Source: Echinarachnius parma
Taxonomy: Eukaryota; Echinodermata; Echinoidea; Clypeasteroida; Echinarachniidae
NCBI GenBank assembly: GCA_037951105.1
Contig: JBAMJV010008865.1
Span: forward strand, 46,425 to 110,424
Direction: 5' to 3'
Length of the DNA stretch: 64,000 bases
Part shown: positions 12,309 through 55,500 of the stretch, in pieces
Layout: each line of letters opens with the position of its first letter
Position numbering within the stretch: position 1 is the first letter of the stretch
Made by a program: the position numbers and the translations under genes
Notes under the pieces: generated by a model
The model's input: only the letters and a program-made list of their open reading frames with translations
Told to the model about the DNA's origin: nothing
The model's database searches: none

Positions 12309-12386
12309 GGGGTGAGAATTTCATAGAAAATGTACTTGCATTGGGAGCACATTTTAATTCGAGGGGAAAGGAAATCTAGAGCTCAC
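12086..12386. other. Intergenic or downstream sequence of the Ig gene
   Basis: A short A/T-rich stretch with an (AATA)n run at 12227-12260 and a (TG)n tract at 12272-12305. No coding signal was seen. Any further 3' exons of the Ig gene were not recognised here. Confidence 0.5.
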
Positions 12387-12647
12387 CTGCAATTTGGACT
12401 TTCACGGGGGGTGAGCAATCATCGCCCTTGCAGGCAACGATGCCAATGTCATTGGATAAGTGGTCGGGTAGGTTAAGGACATTCCCGATTTTAGTTGGGT
12501 CGTAACACTGTTTGAACTGCCAGAATTCACCGATATTATTAAAAACACCGGTGTAAATACACACACGTTGTTTAGTGTTCTGTCGCTGATTTCCATCTTT
12601 TGCTTTGCTTGGACTTAATGTAGTTGTTGTCATGCTGCCAATATCTG
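12387..12647 (-). CDS. Ig gene: tandem module exon, copy 1
   Basis: 261 nt, phase 1 at both ends, acceptor CGACAG and donor GTGAGC. It encodes a Thr/Ser-rich linker (MTTTTLSPSKAKDG) and the module with Cys in RVCIYTG, QCYDP, VACKG and DDC. It is about 60% similar to the exon at 12905-13192. Equal phases allow either copy to be skipped or included. Confidence 0.65.
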
Positions 12648-15600
12648 CTGTCGAATAAGGAGCATATCGTGGTTTTATTGATTGGCGGGAGGCACGCCAC
12701 TAATTTGGGACACTTTCGATGTATTTCTACATTTACCCCTTTTTTAATTATGATATGCTATCATTTAGGGGCACATATCGACACACGTCCCTTGTGGCTA
12801 TACTATATGCCACTACCAATGAAAGCTGATGTATTACAACAGGGACATCATTTACCTTTGTGAATGATACTATGTTGGGTGAAAATTTGAAATCAAAGGC
12901 TCACCTCCAGATTTGACCTTGATGGGGGATGTGCAATCATCACCCGTGCAACTCACGATACCAAGGTCATTGGGTAAGTGATCGGGTAGGATGTCGAGGA
13001 GAGACCCGGCTTTATTTGGTTCGTAACACGTTGAAAACCGCAAGAAGTCACCAATTTCATTATAGACACCGGTGTATATACACACGCGTTGTTTTATAGA
13101 GTTCTGCCGCTGATTTCCAGCTTTTGTATTACTCGGCCTTGATGTAGTTGTTGTCATTCTGCCAATTACTGTCGAAGCTGTTGGTTCGTTTCCTGAAAGA
13201 TTATATTATGAAGAATATATTTACGCTCCTACATAATCATAGTGAATTTCAGAGATGCGTTATATCATTTGGGTCAATTAATTCCATACAATTTGGGAAT
13301 ATGAATGAAACAAGCTTCCAACAAACTTCCCTCTTCTCTTTACTGTTTTTGTAATGTATGTCTTTGGCTCGTAACGCTGTGCCAACTGCAAGAAGTTATC
13401 CTTGTCATCGTAGACACCAGCGTAGATACACACGCGTTGGTTGGAGTTCTGATAACCAGCTTTTGAATTGCTTGGAATTGATTTAGTAGTTGTCATGCTG
13501 CCATTTTCTGTCGAAGCTGTTTTTTTTTCTTTTCATTTATTAATTTAAATTGAATTAAATTCAATTCAATTCAATTCAAATTCTTCATAAAAACATTACA
13601 ATGTACAATATACATGCCAAGGAGACATTTCACAGTAAAATACAAATACAAACATAAATTATGGGAGTGTTTGGAGTAGGCAGAAAGGAGGGAACTCCTT
13701 ATATGAAAGCCTACCCCATGATACAGATACTAAACAGACAAAACATACGATAAAAACACACTAAGTTACAAAAGGGTCAAAATTGCCTTTACTGATTAAT
13801 ATAGTTATTTAATAAAAATTGTTTATATTTTATTTTTAAAAGATTGAGAGTTTTGCTAAATTTGATTTCAGGAGGTATACTATTCCATATAACAGGACCT
13901 TGAAAAAAGAACGAGTTTTTCATACATGTAAACTGGGTCCCAAAAGAAACATCACTTTTTCAGAGCGACGCTCATTAAAATCCATATCATCAAATTGAAT
14001 CATATTCAGACACAGATAAGCTATCATTCTCCTTATGAAGCATATCTGAAAAATTAAAAGTTTGCTTTTGCAAAAAAAGAGAAAAATGCGATGGAATCAC
14101 TATAAGGACCCCGTTTACAGTGCAGGGCCGGGCCGAGCCGCGGCTCGGCCCGGCCTAAATTGCGGTACTCGGCCCCCCAATTGTGTGCGTTTACAGTGGC
14201 GGGCTCGGCCCGGCCGCCCTTTCAATATCTTGTCGTAGTGGCGCTCTGCATTTTAACAAACCATTATTTTGGGGGCGCGCCGGGGTCACAGTGCAGATCA
14301 GAGCATCGATATACACCACTTTATATATCGATGGATCAGAGGCGCTGGTTATTATTTTGTAATGAATATCCTATGACGTAATGATCCTTTCACTTCCGGG
14401 GTCACATATTTGGTACCGCATTTGGCCCTGCGTGCGTTTACAGTGAGAAAAAGCGGAGCCGAGCCGCGGCCGAGACAACCTCCAGAGCGGGGCCAAATGC
14501 GCGGCCACTTTTGGTACCGCATTTGGCATTTTTGAGCGTTTACAGTGAAAAAAAGGCCGGGCCGAGCCGGCCTTTTTTTCACTGTAAACGGGGTCTAGGT
14601 CATTTTTCAAAAATCACAGAAACTGCTCGCTGCGAACCTCCACGAAAGGCGGTCTATTCAGAACTTTCAATAGCTATTCATTCAACTTCAAAGCGGGTTA
14701 TGTAACCACTAGACTGGCTATTGTCCGTACCGAGCTCTGTGCCCGGAAGGCGAGCAGTTTCTGTGATTTTTGAAAAATGACCTCTTGCGATTTCACCTTA
14801 TTTTATTCTTTGTTGACAAAAGCAAACATAATTTTTTTTAGATGAGCTTGCTAAGGGGTATTAGAGCTAAACTATGCCCAATTATGATTAATTGTTATGC
14901 TTTGGATTTGAATGTGTGTCGCTCTGAAGAAGTGATAAGTTTCTTTTGGAGCCCAGTTTAGTTCGTATTTTGGGGAGATAGTATATCCCCTAATGTAGTA
15001 AAAATAAATGTTGTGAAATTGTTGGATATAATCTTGGAAACAGTTTTAACTTGGTCTAAATACATTACTGATGAGAAAAAGTGATGTTTCCATTTTGTAT
15101 TTTTGGTCCCAGGGTGCATTTTGACGATCTTAAAGATAATTAGCTAATTTGCATATTTCTGAAATAAGGTCAGGGGTCATTTTCCATCTAGGAATAGTAC
15201 AGTAGTAATCAAAACAATCATGACAGGGTAATTTGGGGCAAGGAATCCATTTCCAGTGCTCATTTTCATGTGCCGTATGGGGAACGCCCTGAAATCCAAG
15301 ATGGCTTCCCCTAATTTGCATATTTATGAATATTATTGATTTACAGTAGCTACATCCTCTAATAAGTATTAATTGCAGGTCGTATAGATTAAATCATGCT
15401 CTTAATGTATATTAAAGATACTTCAGATTGGTTGCCACCTTGGCAACCTCTGACAATGCCTATAATTAGCTTAATTTGATTATTCACCTAATTTGCATAT
15501 CCCCAGAAATCGTGTGTTTCATATTGGAGTTATCAACATTTCACATTCGCTCAATCATGTTTCCGAATGAATTATATATATACTCGTTACGTGGTAATCA

Positions 15601-15852: not shown

Positions 15853-17801
15853 ATCGGGTGCTTCGCACCCTCAGGCTTGGTCGCTCCGCTCCGTCGCATC
15901 ACCCTCCCCCCTCCAATATTCGGGCAAAAGATGCCAGCCCCCCCCCCCCCCCCCTGAACAAATATGCTCCTACGCCCATGGTATAAGAGGCGAACACTTA
16001 CGCTTTATAGTGAGCACAACCAAGGAGTTACTATAGTAACTCCTTGGCACAACATTGTAAGACTTCATGCCGCTGCTCGACACGAAGACGCAGGTGTAGT
16101 TTCCTTGGTCGCTCGGGTGTACCTCTGAGATGACGAGATGGGCTGTTCCCATGAGCTGGTTCAGATCCAAGTGGAATCGAGCATCACTAGAGTTATGCAT
16201 GCACACCCCTAACTTGCAGTCCTGGGCCGCTATGAACTCGCTTACGCCATTCTTCTAAAAATAAATTAATCACATTGTTTGTGCTTTACCAAATATACAT
16301 TCACATTTTGTTTGAGAATATAACGTATGTATACACTAATTACAATTGAGAGGACGGTCTGGCATTTGCAAGTGTATCTAAGACCAAATGTAAACAGAAT
16401 ATTAACGGGCAATATACATGTAATCTCACAAGTAATCTTCTACAAAATAATGCTAAAATTCGCACTTCGCAGGTAAGCTCTTTAATCGTGTTAATCATAT
16501 TTTTGATATATGCAAACAGACAAACAAGCAACAACAATAAAAAATAAATAAAATAACGAAATAAAAAAAATATATTTTTTCTCATTACGCCACCGACTTG
16601 ATGTCTTGATGTTCATTTCCCAGAGACTCAGATTGAGAAGTACAATATGCACAATTCCCATTCATTATGATTTATATAATGAAATGCCTATGTACTATGT
16701 AGCCTATATTAATACTATTTTTGGTTTTTATTACATCGTTATTCTTAAAAAGGGGAGATAGTAAGGTTTGATTGAAATTATAAATAGTTCGTGCAATTGT
16801 GTATGAATATTCTGGAAATATTATTACCTCTAACCGCCATGTTACACTTTCCAAGTATGTTCCCGATCCTGGGCAATTCCACGCCAAATGAGCCAAAAGT
16901 GGAAAAAATCAAATGAGGATTATTTCTGATCTTGTTTATTTTTTCTGGATTATTTTTTCATAAAATCATGATCACATAATGATATTTTTCAGTTTACATG
17001 ATTAAACAAAATATTGGGCGTCTCCTGATAGGAGAAACAGACACCATACATGAACCCATACACATGGGACTACACAGTGCCTATTTCTAGATTTTCTTCA
17101 TTTTTTGCATTCCTTTCTATTATTTTTCTGTATTAAGGTACCAGATTGGATGATTGGATATCACACTATGTGTTCACATTAAAATTTCAGTTTTTTGAGA
17201 GCCATAAAGTATATTTTTAATGAATCAAAAACTCTGTCCTTCCGTTACTGTCCTTCCGTTACCGAACAGTGAAGCAATTAACTTCTTGTAATTAATATAC
17301 CAATAGACATATTTTGTTCAAATAAATGTTGTAATACTCTTTGAACATTAGGGAATGGACTATGAGCCAATAAAACATGATAGCATTTGAAACTTCACAG
17401 AGATTGGATCATAACTAAAGAACTTGAAAATCCATGTCCATTTTGCCGTCCTTCCGTTACCGGCCTGATTAGTGTCCATATCTAATAAACGCAATGTAAA
17501 CAAAATGTTTAAAAAAAAATAGGAAATCAAAGGTGTCCCACCAAGAGTCTCAAAAATGTTATTTACAATGATGAATCATAAGCAGGATCCTGGAATTATT
17601 TTATTAAATTTCAAAAATTGCGTCTGAATGTCCTTCCGTTACCGTGCATTTGGCTTTGCCCTCCTGATATATCCAAATCAGTATCACATTTAAGCGTGAT
17701 GGATCTCCCTGCTTCGACCTCAACAGTCCCATGATCACGAACTTCGCGGCTATGTCGGTGCCGTGGGGTGGCAGCAGTTAAACCAGTAAGGAAAATGATA
17801 A
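12387..17801 (-). CDS. Immunoglobulin-domain extracellular protein, partial gene model
   Basis: Exons in coding order are 17643-17801, 16828-16868, 16002-16254, 12905-13192 and 12387-12647, with phases that join without a stop. The first encodes the end of a signal peptide (IIFLTGLTAATP) and the first Ig strands (TVEVEAGRSITLKCD, first Cys). The second gives SVTWRLE, the conserved Trp. The third gives LDLNQLMGTAHLVISEV and SDQGNYTCV, the D-x-G-x-Y-x-C motif. Two phase 1-1 exons follow, each with one copy of an unknown module (RVCIYTGV, then CYEP or CYDP, then GIVxCxGDDC). The start codon exon and 3' end were not found. A secreted or membrane receptor role is inferred. No family name is offered. 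Confidence 0.7.
12905..13192 (-). CDS. Ig gene: tandem module exon, copy 2
   Basis: 288 nt, phase 1-1, acceptor TTTCAG and donor GTGAGC. It has the same layout as copy 1: a Thr-rich linker, RVCIYTGVYNEIGDF, TCYEPNK, then DLGIVSCTGDDCTSP. Four cysteines are conserved between the copies, suggesting two disulfides. Confidence 0.7.
13355..13516 (-). pseudogene. Ig gene: decayed module exon, copy 3
   Basis: Homologous to the first half of the other two module exons (MTTTKSIPSNSKAG, then QRVCIYAGVYDD), but similarity ends after RYEPK and no donor follows. The second cysteine has become Arg. The sequence before its acceptor is purine-rich because a LINE tail abuts it (see 13520-14103). Probably a dead exon. 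Confidence 0.65.
13520..14103 (-). mobile_element. 3' end of a non-LTR retrotransposon
   Basis: On the minus strand this reads a degenerate polyprotein C-terminus (RRSEKVMFLLGPSLHV-like), a 3' UTR, and a TTGAA-type repeat tail at about 13545-13580. A related fragment lies in the other orientation at about 14790-15000. The tail sits against the acceptor of the decayed exon at 13355-13516. Confidence 0.65.
14104..14596. mobile_element. MITE with GACCCCGTTTACAGTG termini
   Basis: The left end GACCCCGTTTACAGTG is mirrored by CACTGTAAACGGGGTC at the right. The interior repeats GCGTTTACAGTG three more times and is rich in GGCCGGGCCGAG-type palindromes, so it could fold on itself. No coding function. 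Target duplication unclear. Confidence 0.75.
14597..14783. repeat. Short inverted-repeat element, 33-bp arms
   Basis: The arm starting GGTCATTTTTCAAAAATCAC at 14597 is repeated in reverse complement ending near 14783, around a ~120-bp centre. It directly adjoins the MITE at 14104-14596. Confidence 0.75.
14790..15000 (+). mobile_element. Non-LTR retrotransposon C-terminal fragment
   Basis: Homologous to the reverse complement of about 13870-14100, including the GTCGCTCTGAAGAAGTGAT block. With that fragment it forms an inverted pair around the two MITEs. Broken by stops. Confidence 0.55.
15001..15720. other. Ig gene intron, no gene seen
   Basis: AT-rich, with several recurrences of AATTTGCATATT at about 15146, 15306 and 15488. 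No splice-flanked coding segment was recognised. Confidence 0.5.
15721..15985. mobile_element. hAT-family relic with C-tracts
   Basis: Carries the GCACCAGATTGCA core followed by CTCCCTACCGTGGGAGGGG, long C-tracts (about 15819-15852 and 15937-15955) and a right end CTCCTACGCCCATGG resembling the family terminus. No matching left end or target duplication was found. Confidence 0.6.
16002..16254 (-). CDS. Ig gene: third Ig exon (C-terminal half of the V-like domain)
   Basis: 253 nt, entering in phase 0 and leaving in phase 1 with donor GTAAGT. It encodes KNGVSEFIAAQD, two close cysteines (DCKLGVC), LDLNQLMGTAHLVISEV, then SDQGNYTCVF and SLVVLTIK as the last strand. The D-x-G-N-Y-T-C motif is diagnostic of an Ig fold. 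It contains a perfect 28-bp palindrome (16020-16047) that codes for part of the F-G region. Confidence 0.8.
16020..16047. repeat. Perfect 28-bp palindrome inside the Ig exon
   Basis: Both arms read CCAAGGAGTTACTA. The palindrome is in frame within the coding exon and does not extend further. Confidence 0.95.
16255..16827. other. Ig gene intron
   Basis: AT-rich intron with no internal gene. It has a GTAATA donor on the minus strand at its high end and the TTTTTAG acceptor at its low end. Confidence 0.6.
16828..16868 (-). CDS. Ig gene: 41-nt exon carrying the conserved Trp
   Basis: Encodes SGTYLESVTWRLE. Its length (41) converts the incoming phase 1 to outgoing phase 0, exactly what the flanking Ig exons need. 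The acceptor AG and the first two coding bases (AGGA) are the target duplication of the adjacent element at 16871-17661. The donor is GTAATA. Confidence 0.7.
16871..17661. mobile_element. Introner-like TIR element forming an Ig gene intron
   Basis: 791 bp with short imperfect TIRs (GGGCAATTCCACGCC at 16871; GGGCAAAGCCAAATG reading inward from 17661) and a 4-bp target duplication TCCT at 16867-16870 and 17662-17665. On the coding strand the intron runs 17642 to 16869. Its GTAACG donor lies 19 nt inside the element, in one of four copies of a GTAACGGAAGGACA-type motif. Its acceptor AG is the first half of the AGGA duplication. It contains no transposase frame. A relative is at 30654-32231. Confidence 0.75.
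17643..17801 (-). CDS. Ig gene: exon with signal-peptide end and first Ig strands
   Basis: 159 nt, acceptor TTTGCAG and donor GTAACG. It encodes IIFLTGLTAATPRH (hydrophobic, then a likely cleavage zone), then HGTVEVEAGRSITLKCD, an Ig A'-B strand pattern with the first canonical Cys. The last 19 nt derive from the adjoining element and, with the next exon's GA, encode GQSQMHG. The upstream exon with the start codon was not identified. Confidence 0.7.
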
Positions 17802-23347: not shown

Positions 23348-26300
23348 CTGGATAAGAATGGGAGAGAAGAAAGGTGTTGATAAAACATCAATTAGTGGAA
23401 AGGGGTGGGGGAGGGAGCACTTATTACTGCCTGAATAAGTTTAATAACTAGTTTTTAAAATGTTCATGGATTATACTAGCTTACTAGGGGAGATATTCCA
23501 TGCAGAGTTCAACAGGGATATTTTATAACCAGGTTCTTGTAAAATAAAATCACACTTTCAAATTTATTTGAGTATCAAAGATATGTAAGATACTCACAAG
23601 TCAGAATTTCCACTTTCATTAAATCAAAGTCATGGGAACTACGTTTTAAGTAGTGCACTAGCAAACACTTATCATGGTTTCAATCACTAAACTGTTTCTG
23701 TACAGCATGTACTTCTACATTAATTTCCAATCTAAATTTAAATTATATGTAATATACAGCGGAACCTCTTTCAAAAAAGATCCTTGGGACCATGACATTA
23801 CATTGATATGTATCTTGTTATATTAGGGTTTTTAAAAATATATAAAAAAGGCCAGGACCAGCAAAGATACCTTGTTATAAGAGAGTGTGTTTTTTTAAAT
23901 ATCAGATCTCTCTATAACAAGGTTCCACTGTGAATTCATCTCACCTAGAATGTAAGTAGACGGATCAAATTTCCCCTTGACTGTGGACTGTGTTGGGAGA
24001 AGCCAGGTGATGATGGCACTTTTCTGTGAGTACTGGTCTTGCAGGAATCCTCGTAGCTGGGCATAGTATATACCGCCCTCTACATCCAGCAGGGAGGCAA
24101 TGTCTCCGATCTGGTAGTACGTACCCTGCGACAGAAATTTGATTAAAATGCAGTTGTCATTTGTATGGTGACCCAAGTGTATGCCCTATGAAAGAATTTT
24201 CTGACATGAAAATAACATTAAAACAACAAAATAGTCAGATGTTTTAATTACTTACTTTATGGAGTGAATGGATGATTATGAAACACAATTTCAAGAATAA
24301 CTAATAAGGTCTCTATTTTTGTTACAGTTTACTATTTCTAATTGATAAACTTTATTTAAATTGTATAAAGCAGATGGCAACAAATAAACTTGGATGTATA
24401 AGTATGCAAACAGTGACAATTATTTCAAAATTAGATATAGTCATGTGATCTGACTCGGAATACAAAACAAAGGCTCTGCAAAAATAATATAAACAGTAAA
24501 CATGTCGGCATTAAAGTGAAATGTTAAAAATAAATATCTTTTTATTAAAAAAAAGTTGTGCATCAAGCCACATACTTGCAGGGCTGGGTTCAGAAACATA
24601 ATTCATCTTTTCATTACTGTTACTTTTTCCTAAAACTTACCCCATGAAAAACACTTCCTGATGTTACTATTGTTGACACAGATTCAGAACCTTTTAGTGG
24701 CTGCAAAGAAAAACAATCAAAATAATATTTGTTTGATTTGTCAAGAGATAGCAAGGGAAAATTATTCAAATCGGTACCAAATTTTCACACAGACAAGCGT
24801 TTTCATTATTATAAAAATATAATGGGGAAAATACTCAAAGATATGCTCAGAAAATAGACACGAAATGCTCTGTTATCTGTTATGAAATCTCTGGCATCAA
24901 TTGCTCATACAACAAATGCTAAATGAAATTGTAAAGGTTTTTTTTTTTAAGATTACGTGATAAATAAATCAAGGTTAGAATTAGATATCAACTTCTTTCC
25001 TTGTGAGTTATATACATGTACAAATTGTGATCCCATCCACTGATCCACATCTACTTTGTAAATGGTCATAAACTGTACATATGACCATTTACATGCCATA
25101 TCATCTGAGCGAACTGTGTACACTGAAACTGAATGCATGGGTAACGATCGTTCAACTATCGGCACCCATGTATTGTCAATACAATGCAGAGCACATGTGA
25201 ATCATACCAGGATTCGGACCATTTACAATACATTGTAGACGTGATATGATCCCAGCCCAGTCATGTAGCGAAGCTATATAGGCAACCAAAATTATATTTG
25301 TTTTAAATAAATTGTAATAAATTGGATTTTGATTAATATATTATAGAATCAAAATTGTGGTGGATAATTTGTCATCGGTGCAACTATCAGGACCATTTAC
25401 AATACATTGTACTATGTGCGGTGCAATGGCAATGCCAATTCAGTGTTGCCATTGCCTTGGGTGCATGCTGCAAACATGTTTTTTTTATTTTGCTGAATTT
25501 GTGCCATTTATGGAAACAATTTTGAAGCGATTGTAGCCAGAACATGTCACCAGATAGATGGACAAATCTATCGTTTTCATGGCCTCTTTTACATTTATAA
25601 TAGCAGCCTTTACTCATGGCCGACAGTAAACTAGAGTAAAAGAGTGCAAAATTGTCTAAAACTAAAGTCAAGATGTCAAGACTCAACTCTCAGACTCAAG
25701 TCAAGAGGCCATGAAAATGATAGATTTGTCGATCTATACTCGCCACTCCAGAGTGACCAGACAGCAAGATAAAATACAAACTAGAAATTGCGCGCTCGGC
25801 GGGTCGCGCAGCCGAGCACATGTATCCCCCGAACCAATTGCATTGCACTTTTTGCATTGCACTCGATTACAAACGCACTGCATTTTAACAATTTTTGTTA
25901 GAACTGGATCGCCAGCGCGGTAGGCGATCCGGCGAGTTACCTTCTCACATACACAGAGCTGATTGTGTGATTGTATGAGTTATGTGTACATGTACGCTAT
26001 ACGATCTCAGAACCGATTCTTCTCGGAACCGAGACATGGGTATGGAATCAGAATCGACTCCAAGCTGGGGCAGAACCGCCCAAGCCTACTTCATACCAAA
26101 TAAGAAAATAATCGGACAAGAACTCGGACCTGTAGAGCGGTCACAAGGTAATCTTAACTATTTCTTTATATCATGGTTACCATGGCAACCATGAATCCGC
26201 CCCACACCAAAATCAATAGGCTTCATCCTCTTTCCTTAATACACCTTCATACCAAATAAGAAAATGATCGGACAAGAACTCGGACCTGTAGAGCGTTCAC

Positions 26301-29300
26301 ATGGTAATCTTAACTATTTCTTTATATCATGGTTATCATGGTTACCATGGCAACCAGGACTCCGCCCCACACCAAAATCAATAGGCTTCATCCTCTTTCC
26401 TTAATACACCTTCATACCAAATTAGAAAATGATCAGACAAGAACTCGGATCTATAGAGCGTTCACAAGGTAATCTTAACTATTTCTTTATATCATGGTTA
26501 CCATGGCAACCAGGACTCCGCCCCACACCAAAATCAAAAGGCTTCATCCTCTTTCCTTAATACACCTTCATACCAAATTAGAAAATGATCGGACAAGAAC
26601 TCGGACCTGTAGAGCGTTCACAAGGTAATCTTAACTATTTCTTTATATCATGGTTACCATGGCAACCAGGACTCCGCCCCACACCAAAATCTAAAGGCTT
26701 CATCCTCTTTCCTTAAGACACCTTCATACCAAATTAGAAAATGATCAGACAAGAACTCGGACCTGTAGAGCGTTCACAAGGTAATATTAACTATTTATTT
26801 ATATCATGGTTACCATGGCAACCAGGACCGCGCCCCACACCAAAATCAATAGGCTTCATCCTCTTTCCTTAATACACCTTCATACCAAATTAGAAAATGA
26901 TCGGACAAGAACTCGGACCTGTAGAGCGTTCACAAGGTAATCTTAACTATTTCTTTATATCATGGTTACCATGGCAACCAGGGCTCCGCCCCACACCAAA
27001 ATCAATAGGCTTCATCCTCTTTCCTTAATACACCTTCATACCAAATTAGAAAATGATCGGACAAGAACTCGGACCTGTAGAGCGTTCACAAGGTAATCTT
27101 AACTATTTCTTTATATCATGGTTACCATGGCAACCAGGACTCCGCCCCACACCAAAATCAATAGGCTTCATCCTCTTTCCTTAATACACCTTCATACCAA
27201 ATTAAAAAATGATCGGACAAGAACTCGGACCTGTAGAGCGTTCACAAGGTAATCTTAACTATTTCTTTATATCATGGTTACCATGGCAACCAGGACTCCG
27301 CCCCACACCAAAATCAATAGGCTTCATCCTCTTTCCTTAATACACCTTCATACCAACGAACGTTGAGGGCGTATAACACTTGCGTGCAGAGCGCGTTCAG
27401 AGCTCTGCTTGCGTGTTGCCTCGAGGAAGGTCAACTCGAATTATTTTTTGTGACCACTTGAAGGGCGCCCCAGTTGACAGTAACGTTTTTCCGTAGATTG
27501 TAGATTTGATACACCAACCAGAAGTCCGATTTTGTACAGATTGACACTGAACATATAATTTTTTCTGGACATTTCATCAGATATGTGAAATGTAACCAAA
27601 ATTGGTTATTCAAATTAATTTTGTAATAAAAAAAGTTACACCGGCATTCCTAAGTTATTACACATATTTGGCATTTCAACTGTGTGTACAAATCACAATA
27701 GTGACTGAGCCTTTTAAAATAGCAGACGACAACGTACAGCTGTTGAACGGCGGAATCCAACTTTCACAAAATAGTAAGTCGATTTTATTTTAAAATGCTG
27801 TAATACCTTATTTTATATAGATTGTGTCTACTTGTACTAGTCATCATGTCGACAATTTGATTGAAATAATATCTGAAACTAGTTTGTGAGTTCATTTTCA
27901 TTAGGCCTATATTAATTTGAAAGAAATATTTGGAAGTGGAACTGGTCTGAGGGCGGGGCGCGGCTGGAATAGATCGACAAATCTTTTGTTTTTGTGGCAT
28001 CTTTTAACATTTACTTTCAGTCTCTTACTGTCGGCCATTCTATTACTAAAATAACCAGTAAAATAGGCAATGAAAACGATTCATTTTGTCGATCGATCTA
28101 ACTCTAAGACTGAATAATGGATGGCAAGAACAAAGACATGCAAGTGCTGAACTTCTAAAAGTAAAAGTCGGTAACTTCACCGGCTTTGCCTTTGCCGGTG
28201 CCGGTGGGCTAGAACTAGAAGTGAGCCACGCCGGTCTTGTCGGCAGGCGAAGCTAGGCTAAGGTGTCCCTCTCTCATACTCGGCTTCTCTGCATGGCCGT
28301 CTCGGCAATCTGGACTAAATATAGTCTACTCGGCCTTAAAACGATTAACGATGGTTTGCCATCTACCTTAGATAATCCAAGAACCGGTAATGTTTAATCA
28401 CATTAGATTTAGAGAGATCAGTTAACTTGTCCTAGCATCTTTCAATGATTTATTAATCATTGATTTTTATTGCGGTCCCGACTCCTGCCTGGCCCTGGTT
28501 AATAATAATTTATTTAAATTTAAATTAAAAACAAGAAAGATTCCGAGAGTGAGAGACTGACCCTAGGCCTGGCTAATTGTTTTCTTCCAGCCACTGCACT
28601 GACATTCAATTTGTCCTGCAAACACATGCCAGCCCCAGACTGGAAAGCATTAATTCACATTTTTATCTGATGTTTTTGTTCAACCCCTTAGCTTAGGCCT
28701 TACTCTGATTGCACGTTTAGGATGTATCGTTTGTAGCCCATTCTAAATCATTGATGACAATACAAAATGATGGACCAAGAAATGTCTAAGTAATAACAAA
28801 AACTTCTTTTCAAGGATTTTTTTTAACGTTTACTTAACTGGCTCTTGACTGAAAAGTAAATGTAGTACCTAATCATCAGTTTAAACCCTAAAGTCAATCA
28901 ATCAATTTTGCATTTTTTAACTGAGACTTTACAGGAGCTCGTTTGTCATTTCACTGTTTTCAGGAGCTAATTACTAATTTGCACTCTCTGAACAGATGTA
29001 TTTTGTTTACTATTTTGGTCTAGTATTTTCATTCCACATCAAGAACATGTTAGTGAAATTAAGTGAATATTTTTTCTTATGAATGTTATATTTTTTTCAT
29101 CTCATAGCAATATTTTGAGGATGTGGTTCAACAAGGACTGGCGACTGGTGATAGGCTGGTGTTACAGTGGTACTTCAGGATTACTTATCTGCCGGTTCTT
29201 TACTCGCTATGCACAGCTAGTCAGCTATCCACAGGCACAGGTATTCTTTCTACTATAATTTAATCATCCCACTCATTTTTTGGGTGCAGGATTCTTTTTT

Positions 29301-43500: not shown

Positions 43501-46500
43501 CTGGAGTACAAATGTAAGAGATATATGTACAAGAGCATTATGAGCAAAATTGATAAACAAGAGAACAATATGTGAATCAACTATCCTTTTTGTATACATT
43601 AGACACACTAATTATGCATTTTGTATATAAAATTAATATTTGTGTAAATTATGGTTAACACCAGAATATGTGATATAGGCCCGGGATGGCTGACTTGTTT
43701 TTCCCGATAGATTGCCCTATCTCATTGCAATAGAGTGGTTAAGTGTGATGTCATCAATGATGTCATAAACATCTTTTTTTGGAATTTTCAAATTTGGACT
43801 TCATTTTCAGAAAGAGCATAACAAATAATGTCCAAATACCGAAAATCAATTGAATAGGTTACGTATTGGCTGAGATATGACCATCCGAATGATTTTTGTT
43901 GTCAATGGGCAATCAGTGTTATAGTGCACTGGTTCATAACTTTATGAACCAGTGCACTATAACACTGATTGCCCATTGAAGTAAAATTCATTCGGATGGG
44001 CATATCTCAGCCAATACGTAATATATTTGATTGATTTTCGGTATTTGGACATTATTATTGATGCTCTTACGGAAAATGAAGTTGGAATTTAAAAATTCAA
44101 AAAAAGTGTTTTTATGACGTCATGGCTTCTGTACTCTATAGGGAAGCGATAGCAATATCAGGCAGCAAACCTAGCGATCACTAGCGCAATCACAAACACG
44201 ACTTTCATTGATCAATAGCAATATCCAAGGGGTTTTATATTTTAAGTCAAGGGAACTATTAAGGCATTGTAATCCTTTATGGCCCAGTCAGATATCAACG
44301 GATATCGGAAACGTATGCCCAACGAATAGAAAATTTGCGAAATTAAATTATCCGGTGATGAAAGTCGTCTCCATTGCTTCGTGTACAAAACATAGAACAA
44401 CGTACATCACCGGACAAGGAACGGACAAGAAACGTACAGAACGGATGGAAAATTTAGCTCTCCGTTTGACATCCGTTTGCGCAATCCGTTGATATGTGAC
44501 CGGGCTATTATGAATGCTTACCCCTGTTCCCGTTTGATGGCCTGCCTGTGCTCTCCGTTCTCCCTCTGCCACATCTCCAGCTCTTTCTGCATGCTGTCCA
44601 CATCCTCCTGCAGGTAGTCCATGATCTTCCCCAGCGGGTTGGCGCTCCTCGTCAGGGTCTGGATCGCCCCCCTCAGCTTCTCCACCTCACGCTGGACCAG
44701 CTCGCGCTCCTTGCGCCTCGCTGGGTCAAGGGTCACAGGTTTATCCTGCGATGGTGCAATGAATAGAGAACATGGTTTATATCGGAAATAATATCGCTAG
44801 TGATATTCGTTTGTCTCGCAATGTATGGTCAACATTGAATCTGAATGATCGCGACGTTTCGTATGCTACTGCAATACTTTGTCAAGTGATATTAAAGTAA
44901 CGTAAAACACTCCTATTTATACTCTCATGCGGCTCCAAACCGCGTTATCTCGCATGAGCGAGTTATTCCTAATTGGTCCATAACGGGCAAATTCTATTGG
45001 CCGGTGTACACGGGTGCTAAACCAATCAGCGAGGCGTTTATATCATGGTTTATATCATACACAACTTTTAATCACTTGTTCTTATTCTGTTAACATTGAC
45101 CTCCTTGTTGGGCTCTGGATCGCCCCCTCTCAGCTTCTCCACCTCACGCTGGACCAGCTCTCGATCCTTGCGCCTCGCAGGGTCAAGGGTCACAGGTTTA
45201 TCCTGAAATCTACAGAGAACATGGTTAACATTTTATACAATGTGTAATCTCTTGTTCTGATTCTGTTTACATTGACCTCCTTGTCAGGGTCTGGATCGCC
45301 CCCTCAGCTTCTCCACCTCACCCTGGACCAGCTCGCCCTCCTTGCGCCTCGCTGGGCCAAGGGTCACAGGTTTGTCCTGCAATCGAAAGAGAACATGGTT
45401 TACATTATACACAACTTATAATCAATTGTTCTGATTCTGTTTACATTGACACTCCTCGTCAGGGTCTGGATCGCCCCCCTCAGCTTCTCCACCTCGCGCT
45501 GGACAAGCTCTCACTCCTTGTGCCTCGCAGGGTCAAGGGTCACAAGTTCATCCTGCAATGAACAGAGAATTTTACATAACTTGTAATTACTTGTTTACAT
45601 TGACCTCGTCAGGGTCTGGATCGCCCCCTCAGCTTCTCCACCTCACGCTGGACTAGCTCATTGTTCTTGCACCTCATAGGGTCAAGGATCACCAATTTAT
45701 GAACATTGGACAGATAACATGGCTTACTTCATACACAAATTGTAATCAATTGTTCTGATTTAGTTCAGCTTCATCACCTCACCCTGGACTAGATCTCGCT
45801 CCTTGTGCCTTGCAATAAAAAACAGTTTTTTTTTTATTGAAGTGCTCTTTTAAACAGAACTTGACTAATCCTTCAACCTACCTCCTGTTTGTTCTGGGTT
45901 CCCTCCAGCTCCTTCTTGGTTTCCAGGATCTTCTTCACCAAGCCTCCGTGCTCCCCATCATCCTCCACCGACTCACTGGCTGTAGGCTGCATAGATATGG
46001 GAAGGCAAGAATAACACTTGGTTGTTGAGTAAACAACTCACAGGCACAAATTCAGCCGTGGGTTTTACTCAACTCATTCAGTACTGTTATGAAAATGCCC
46101 CGGCAGAAATGCATGATACTAAACTCAACTAGCCGAACATAGATGCACAAGACAACAATCAAAGTCATTACACATAATAATAATTATTATTATTTTTGTT
46201 TAACCCAGGGTAGCTTTTACAAAACACTGATACTATTTACTAAACAGTGTCCAATAGCTACATATCATCTAAAATATACATGTCCTCTACATTCATTCTG
46301 ACTAGTACTGGTAATTCTGAACTATCTGTGTGTGTGCACCTTACTTATAACTTGAGTTCAACGTACCGGACATGACAAAGATTTGTTGTTATATTATGGC
46401 ATGCATGGAATACTAGGTTATTACAAAATTGGTCAGACATTCAATAATTGTTTTTAGAAATGTAACACTCTCCCACATATCCATACGGTACCTAGCAGGC

Positions 46501-52500: not shown

Positions 52501-55500
52501 TGACCTCAAATTTTGATGGCTACATTGGCTCCCTAAGAAACATTCAGGTACCAAGTTTGATTGAAATCTGACATTTAGTTCTTGGTATTTTGCCATTTCA
52601 AGTTTTTTTGCGTATGAGTCCTGTGACCTTGACCTCAACCTCATGATCCCAATATTTTATGGCTATGTTGACTCTTAATGATACATTCAGGTACCAAGTT
52701 TGATTGAAATCTGACATTCAGTTCTTGAAATTTTGCCATTACAAGCCATTTTTGCATGTATATCGAGTCCTGTGACCGTGACCTTTGACCTCATGACCCG
52801 TAAATCTAATCCGATCATTGCCACCCTCATGTGTACACTCGAAGCAAGTTTGAAATTGATCCGTCAACCGGTTCTTGAGATATCGGAAGAACGATGCATT
52901 TTTGCACATATATTGAGTCCTGTGACCTTGACCTTTGACCTCATGAACCCCAAAATCTAATCAGATCATTGTTACCCCAATATTTACACTCATACCAAGT
53001 TTGAAATTGATCTGTCCACCGGTTCTTGAGATATCGCAAGAACGAGGCATTTTTGCACATATATTGAGTCATGTGACCTTGACCTTTGACCTCATAAACC
53101 CCAAAATCTAATCAGATCATTGTCACCCTAATATTTACACTCATACCAAGTTCTGAATTGATTTGTCTACCGGTTCTTGAGATATCGCGAGAACGAAGCA
53201 TTTTTGCATATATATCGAGTCCTGTGACCTTGACCTTTGACCTTATGACCCCTAAAATCTAATCAGATCATTGTCACCCCAATATGTACATTTATACCAA
53301 GTTTGAAATTGATCCGTCAACCGGTTCTTGAGATATCGCGAGAACGAAAACGGGACGTACGTACGGACGGACAACCCGAAAACATAATGCCTCCGGCCAC
53401 TTCGTTGGCGGAGGCATAACAAAACTTCAAAACAAAATTGGGTTTCAGGGACGAATGACCGACAGATAGGCTCCTAGCTCAGTGGGTAGAGCACTGGTCT
53501 AGTAATCTGGAGGTCTCGGGCTCGAATCCTGGGAAACCAAATTTACTTTGTTCATTATGTACTTCTTGTCAGTTTCTCTCAGTTAGTTAGTTATTCTCTA
53601 ATTCTTTCTCTAATTTATCATAAATTACTCCATCTTAGTACCATAAAAATTATATATGCACGTACTTGTCTCCAGTCTCCTGATTAGCAATTGCCTTTCA
53701 ATTCTCTCTCTTCAATTATCAATCTCACCAGTATTATGCTAAGTTAAAGTTAAAGAGTTAAAGACCTTCAAGGCGGCGCCTATCTCCGATTCATTAGCCC
53801 TAGGCCACACGTCTACTAAATGTAGCGAAAGCTACAGAAGGGGGCCAGTCCTCTGGTAACTCGTGTGATTAACTTTCCCTTCTCCATTCTATAAATGCCG
53901 AGTGCCTGGCTAGAAGGCAGAGGGTACCATTTTAAAAGTCTTTGGTATGACCCGGTCTGGGTTCGAACCCGGGACCTCCCGTGCATGAGGCGGACACTCT
54001 AACCGCTAAGCCACCATGCTCGGTCGTATTATGCTAAGTAGCAAATCTATGTCTGCTCAGTTAGTGTCTCAATGTATCAATGCAAAATAAACTGAGCCTT
54101 AATATGAGCAAAATGATAAAAATCTTTCTCCCTGCACAGTTTTATGTGAAAAGCGGACCAACAAGTGATCATTACACCATTTACTGTCGGTGAATTTCAC
54201 ATAGTTTATAATACAGTTACAAGTGCAGGCAACTTGTTAATGCGCTAATAAATTAATATACATGTACCATCATAAAACAAAAGTTAGGTCTATATTAATG
54301 GATTAACGCTGGGTAAATGAGCAGCAAGTGCTTATTTATTTCCTTTTTTTATCATTTCAATTGTAGAGTGTACAAACATTCTTAGTTAATAATTTATTTA
54401 TTTATTTATTTATTTATTCATTCTCCACTCATGGGATGGATTGCCCTTGTCAGCTACAGGCTGTTTTTCAAAGGGGTCCAGGCTCTTACCATCACTATCT
54501 TAGTAATATTTTCTTACCATCATCTTTTGTTGGTCGCCTTCTGCTCCCCTTGGCCGAGGAAGGACGGGGAATCCGATTGCTACCTCCATCTTCATTCTGT
54601 AATAGAAAAAGGAGTTAAATAAAGAGGTAATAATTTTAATAATGTTTCAATTAATATCATAGCGCCTAATTTGAATGATTATGATCTCTTGGCGCTTTAT
54701 ATTATTAACCCGGTCATAGGACATACACTCGCAATCACATTTTGAAAAGCTTTATCATTCTGAATAGGAAAAAGGAGTTTAAAAACAGAGGTAATAATTA
54801 TAATACTTATTCAATTAATATAGCGCCTAATTTTAGTGATTATGATCTCTAGGCACTTTTTTTTATTAACCTGGTCGTGGGAAACACACTGCAATCACAT
54901 TTTGAAAAGCTGGATATAAAGTGCTTTATCAGTTTGGCCGAAGCCAATTTCTAGATTGATGGCGCCATATACATGCATGCACATGTACATGATTGTTTAT
55001 TATGATTGTGATTATTAGTCAAACCAATGTAGAGGCACAGTGACTGCCAAAGCCGTAAGAAGAAAAAAAAGTGGCCATCGTAGACAGGTGACCTCTATAA
55101 CATGATTTTTTTTTTCTTTTCAGGGGGTAAACTTTGGTGGCCACTAAGACAGGTTTGACTCTATTAAATGAATCAATGTACAGAAAATAAAATCTGGGAA
55201 ATAGATAACTTTGTGTGTTTAATCTAATTTTAAAAGAAAGCATATTGCAACTGCAGCAGCTGTAATGGAAAAAGGTTTCAATTTGTTAGTAGCCCAGGCT
55301 ACATACTTTTGGTCAATATTGAACAAAATTATGAAACATATAAATCTCCTCTTGGGACGTTTCAATATCGATTTAGTAGTGCAAATAACAAAATAGGTTA
55401 CTTTGTAACTGCAACATCTGTAATGCAAAAATGTATGAACTTGTTAGTATTAATCAAACCAAAAAGTAAAACTTGTGATATAATATGGAACAAAAAATAC

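Follow-up and report, generated by a model that had tools for sequence, protein, structure and literature searches.

Whether the transposon that divides an immunoglobulin (Ig) gene of Echinarachnius parma landed in a coding exon and is now removed from the transcript as a new intron is the question raised by this locus. The window, i.e., the whole stretch of 64,000 nucleotides that we analysed, carries on its minus strand a V-set Ig gene with four predicted exons, separated by introns that are all GT-AG and match in phase. Joined, the exons give an open frame that begins with MAGRLFYAKVFCLVIIFLTGLTAA and continues up to and including the Ig motif DQGNYTC. The predicted first exon (18254-18215) encodes what appears by eye to be a signal peptide, MAGRLFYAKVFCL, and ends at a phase 1 donor, GTAGGA. 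In one paralogue, P2, the same exon and donor are present as MVGRSYYLPVLCL and GTAGGAAAGT; no signal-peptide exon was found within the stretch scanned for another, P1. The predicted exons 2 (17801-17643) and 3 (16868-16828), identified from the reading frame and by comparison with paralogues, are the two parts of a split Ig exon. Exon 4 (16254-16002), delimited by Pfam, splice-site scores, and paralogues, contains the remainder of the V-set domain and is followed by a phase 1 donor, GTAAGT, at 16001. Against the Pfam V-set model (cut-off 26 bits), the predicted protein scored 28.8 bits with the seven extra residues discussed below, and the protein of the empty site scored 32.9 bits; with or without these residues, the gene encodes a V-set Ig domain.

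Further features were recorded elsewhere in the window. Three similar coding-like stretches (RVCIYTGV...) lie on the minus strand at 12376-13532 and may represent either downstream exons of the Ig gene or a repeat; two of them were scanned, and neither matched Pfam. A MIP-T3 C-terminal domain (Pfam, 86.4 bits) is encoded on the minus strand at 44518-44796, in what is likely a TRAF3IP1 gene. The window also includes a tandem array at 26089-27356 (156-bp unit, 8.1 copies, 95% matches) and a tRNA match on the plus strand at 53468-53540 (Rfam, 35.8 bits). Outside the window, the mitochondrial COX1 (L164) of the genome uses ATA where other animals have Ile, AAA at one Asn position, and AGA at a Ser position; this is how the echinoderm code reads these codons, and it makes an echinoderm origin likely.

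The sequence that separates exons 2 and 3 is a 791-bp copy of a non-autonomous DNA transposon (16871-17661, minus strand), flanked by the 4-bp target duplication AGGA on the acceptor side (16867-16870) and on the donor side (17662-17665), TCCT on the plus strand. When the window's own genome (1.2 Gb in 14,790 contigs) was queried with positions 16871-17661, 2,033 candidates emerged. Scoring covered 40 of these, one being the window itself and the remaining 39 matching at 95-97% identity. These 39 copies were fetched with their flanks and, as the best matches to the window copy, form a biased sample. Exact 4-bp flanking duplications surround 33 of them, the exceptions being L044, L050, L053, L055, L070, and L077; the start GGGCAATTCCACG is present in 31 and the end CGTGGAATTGCCC in 35. 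Such figures argue against a chance origin of the terminal-inverted-repeat element that the original prediction had recognised here. The donor-side end has 1,253 exact copies genome-wide. With its 13-bp inverted ends, target duplications of a fixed length of 4 bp, and many dispersed copies, the family is one of non-autonomous DNA transposons. Three longer variants (L161-L163) contained no transposase recognisable by eye, a literature search with the letters of the element's motif found nothing related, and a motif scan of viral contigs returned 30 stretches with a single match each. Four donor-end matches (L092, L093, L104, and L105) have in common an identical flank ending in AGTG and are one insertion that was amplified together with its surroundings.

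The window copy itself is atypical at its 3' end (CCGTGCATTTGGCTTTGCCC): the terminal 26 bases have no second occurrence in the genome, and the distance from the edge to the donor is 19 nt versus the usual 13. It diverges by 2.8% (22/780) from the consensus of the fetched copies, which themselves diverge by 0.5-2.3%, and it carries 11 private substitutions over ~780 positions, compared with 0-11 (mean 5.4) in the others. The motif that contains the donor, GTAACGGAAGGAC, is found four times within the element, at 17630-17642, 17236-17248, 17250-17262, and 17448-17460 (minus strand).

Paralogous genes preserve the empty site. The exon split by the element could be located in five paralogues and is uninterrupted in every one of them, so the insertion of the element into a continuous coding exon is well supported by the sequence comparison. 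Two of the five are located on the same contig (C8849) and have one uninterrupted exon each, with protein identities of 62% and 57% and DNA alignments that span the insertion site at 76% and 74% identity. The other three, on contigs C12611, C11875, and C10261 (L181-L183), were found by searching with the other flank; their exon is uninterrupted, open, and devoid of the element, its acceptor and donor are the same as in the window gene, and the identities are 59%, 46%, and 57%, respectively. These three additions reinforce the case for insertion but add nothing to that for splicing. The spacing between the first Ig cysteine and the tryptophan is 15 residues in all five paralogues versus 17 in the window gene once the element is removed, and because all five are thus two codons shorter at this point, the exact boundary of the insertion rests on the AGGA duplication rather than on the paralogues. 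The two additional codons in the window gene, right beside the insertion site, are perhaps an older indel or a footprint. A near-identical second copy of either flank was not found in the genome, and the comparison is therefore between paralogues and not between alleles.

We then considered how the element could be spliced. The predicted intron spans 774 nt (16869-17642, minus strand), from GTAACG to TTGCCCAG, and is suggested by the frame and the site scores. It would leave 19 nt of the element in the mRNA (17643-17661), belonging to the end variant that is unique in the genome. Ahead of the acceptor lie 55 T-rich nucleotides without any AG (16871-16925), which include two CTCAT motifs resembling branch points. 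The original prediction was accurate in its coordinates for the element, the flanking TCCT, and the intron, and in deriving the acceptor AG from the first half of the AGGA duplication. Its claim that the splice adds 21 in-frame nucleotides, translated as the seven residues GQSQMHG, likewise agrees with the sequence. Two of its figures can be refined: the donor does lie 19 nt inside the element, where a typical family end would place it at 13 nt, and the Cys-to-Trp spacing does fall from 24 residues to 17 without the insert, with the paralogues shorter still.

The strength of the sites was estimated with a metazoan matrix, and percentiles refer to all GTs or AGs on the minus strand of the window. 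The predicted donor (17642) scored 2.18, a value equalled or exceeded by 3.7% of GTs, and the gene's two other scored donors reached 1.81 and 1.63; with C and G at +5 and +6, it is weak in absolute terms. The predicted acceptor scored 1.83 (7.1% of AGs), against 4.00 and -0.40 for the two other scored acceptors of the gene. Within the element, at exon base 17024, an acceptor-like site scored 7.17, among the best 0.2% and far above the predicted acceptor. Joining it to the donor at 17642 leads the reading into stops inside the element. Among the 175 possible insertion points in the exon, 8 would let the duplication begin with AG, and one of the two orientations fits; approximately 2% of random insertions would hence be equivalent without a loss of host bases. 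Under a looser rule, by which the first AG needs only to lie within 30 nt and in frame, 52 of the 175 points qualify before orientation is taken into account. This lends modest support to the idea that selection kept a tolerable insertion.

Together, these observations outline a plausible birth of a single intron, with a predicted splice. As the comparison with the five paralogues shows, a non-autonomous transposon inserted itself into a V-set Ig gene, within a coding exon that had been continuous. Its orientation would have placed the GTAACG donor 19 nt from the upstream edge and the T-rich, AG-free stretch at the downstream edge, and the duplicated target AGGA would have supplied the missing acceptor AG, all of which can be traced in the sequence. 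Splicing would then take out almost all of the element, and the seven added residues would lie in the loop between the first Ig cysteine and the tryptophan. The gene may thus have survived the insertion with a lengthened loop. We lean toward this account, in which the element is spliced out of the exon at 17642/16869 as a new intron.

A second insertion affects the same domain. A perfect 28-bp palindrome, CCAAGGAGTTACTATAGTAACTCCTTGG, occupies positions 16020-16047 in exon 4 between the two copies of a 5-bp duplication, CACAA (16015-16019 and 16048-16052). Palindrome and 5-bp repeat lengthen the exon by 33 nt, in frame, and the palindrome is missing from both paralogues that were compared in exon 4. 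Genome-wide, it has five exact occurrences, four of them with exact 5-bp duplications and one with a match at 4 of 5 bases. Searching with one 17-base arm revealed 16 further places: at seven, the same palindrome is found with one or two mismatches, always between exact 5-bp duplications (two of the seven share one flank), and the remaining nine diverge past the arm and have no 5-bp duplication at that distance. The palindromes look like a minimal transposon, or like the two ends of an element that makes 5-bp duplications, fused after an internal deletion. At one locus (L173, G000:C9053:29140-29260), the arm leads directly into GGGCAATTCCA, which resembles the start of the transposon in the Ig gene. 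Judged by eye from sequence position, the element would fall in the loop before the tryptophan and the palindrome in that after the second cysteine, the places of CDR1 and CDR3, respectively.

These findings have to be weighed against a possible, less probable outcome, namely that the insertion broke this copy of the gene, so that the transcript keeps the element or splices it wrongly, the protein ends prematurely within it, and the locus is either a polymorphic null allele or a pseudogene of recent origin. Unspliced, the reading stops inside the element at 17613, and splicing to the strong internal acceptor ends in stops as well. Such a fate is also in line with two transposon-like insertions within ~430 coding bases, the second of which could reflect relaxed constraint on the domain, and with the failure to find a near-identical second copy of either flank. 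Pairwise dN/dS values for the window gene and two paralogues (0.69, 1.11, and 0.90) point the same way; such values fit rapidly evolving immune genes as well as weak constraint, and constraint on the window gene is weakly shown. One of the two paralogues compared has lost the second Ig cysteine. On the other hand, both insertions keep the frame, the start exon and the Ig motif are intact, and neither predicted splice site scores below the weakest other scored site of its kind in the gene. Since the insertion is young, as judged from its private substitutions, the intact frame speaks only mildly for a live gene and against a broken copy.

It appears unlikely to us that the element is spliced through other sites, such as another GTAACG copy or an acceptor that lies within the element or downstream of it in the exon, or that the exon is skipped altogether. 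Several copies of the donor motif are available, the one at 17460 with a score of 2.94, as is the high-scoring internal acceptor, and the looser rule for insertion points would make a usable downstream AG common. However, the pair 17642/16869 costs no host bases and keeps the frame, whereas the donor at 17642 yields no open reading with the internal acceptor. Less credible by far is an older intron into which the element inserted later. Secondary insertion into introns is common, and two copies of the family (L059 and L063) are apparently located a short way into an intron of a presumably kelch-like gene, with the border drawn by eye and without a Pfam match. Yet this scenario is already contradicted by the five paralogues, which have no intron at the site; the original prediction had named an orthologue with an unrelated intron at the same position as the observation that would count against its own reading, and the comparison, made on the paralogues, came out in favour of that reading. 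Moreover, coding sequence begins immediately beyond the duplication on either side, and joining the two flanks restores the frame with no intron bases remaining.

Does the proposed intron represent a family of introners or a single case? We inspected 99 other places for host coding sequence beside the element: the 39 copies with both flanks, and 60 of the 197 AG-type places with the donor-side flank only, taken from at least 1,253 copies (at least three more AG-type places are among the 39). By eye and by partial Pfam scans, host coding sequence was recognised at none of the 99, in checks that would miss short or unconserved exons. For the 39 copies, the 25 longest joined frames were judged by eye; the 60 AG-type places comprised 52 that are distinct in their last 60 bases; and Pfam scans covered seven frames plus about two dozen frames that left out low-complexity and repeated ones. 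Only the LINE frames of L057 and L072 exceeded the Pfam cut-off, and thus two of the 39 copies lie in LINE frames and none in a recognised host exon. L160, by its motif, presumably is a LINE too. One candidate for a second exon insertion, on contig C597, had an upstream frame open for 51 codons but was rejected, as the repetition in the sequence extends across the site and Pfam gave no match.

Targets starting with AG accounted for 197 of 1,253 places on the donor side and 44 of 484 on the other side. We rejected this excess as a sign of selection: among the first 20 AG-type donor-side flanks, 4 are identical and three are TAG microsatellites, so it arises at least partly from the amplification of one nested copy with its flank and from the microsatellites. 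The designation as a candidate introner in the original prediction therefore holds in part. It stands with regard to the insertion into an exon and to the arrangement of splice sites from two sources, as published in PMC9860276. As a family-wide property it is not supported, and the proposed search for other copies lying in introns as introners recovered none among the 99 places. The creation of an intron by insertion into an exon, as PMC9860276 describes for introner families, applies to the window copy only, and there with a putative intron function. The element would work like an introner; its membership in an introner family is not supported. A literature search combining introner and echinoderm found no report among the papers covered.

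Cases of intron gain in which the element, the reading frame, and the empty site in several paralogues can all still be seen are rare. Provided that the predicted junction is used, the gene holds a young animal intron that originated from an element of the cut-and-paste type. The 28-bp palindrome is a second transposition-type event that lengthened the protein and left the frame unbroken. We further speculate, and consider it doubtful, that the family is a latent intron in echinoderms and that insertions of the element and the palindrome in CDR1 and CDR3 loops may diversify an immune-type receptor. A copy with the typical end, in sense orientation and at an AGNN target, would be spliced out with 15 nt left behind; this length is a multiple of three, and the part contributed by the element is free of stops in all three frames, with a TAG possible at the join.

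The locus can be compared with several known systems. The family resembles miniature inverted-repeat elements with 4-bp duplications in its shortness, high copy number, inverted ends, and lack of recognised coding sequence. In maize Ds and dSpm and in the Drosophila P element, transposons in exons are spliced out through chance sites. As in those cases, a single exon insertion would be partly removed through sites from the element and the duplication, but their junctions come from the analysis of transcripts, whereas that of the window is predicted only.

The closest parallels come from introners (PMC9860276). There, an introner family comprises introns of different genes whose sequence similarity extends close to both splice boundaries; introners are enriched in genes in 161 of 175 genomes, and the main survey reports them in only two animal groups. 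Compared with these families of many similar introns, the window family provides one candidate intron, with a predicted splice. An arrangement with one splice site from the element and one from the target duplication is described in that work. Its Chrysochromulina type (Fig. 2C of PMC9860276) lacks the inverted ends of the window family but shares with the window element the 4-bp target duplications, the 5' splice site carried by the element, and the co-opted 3' site. Finally, the Aureococcus introners (Fig. 2F of PMC9860276) insert codons on splicing, just as is predicted for the element in this Ig gene.
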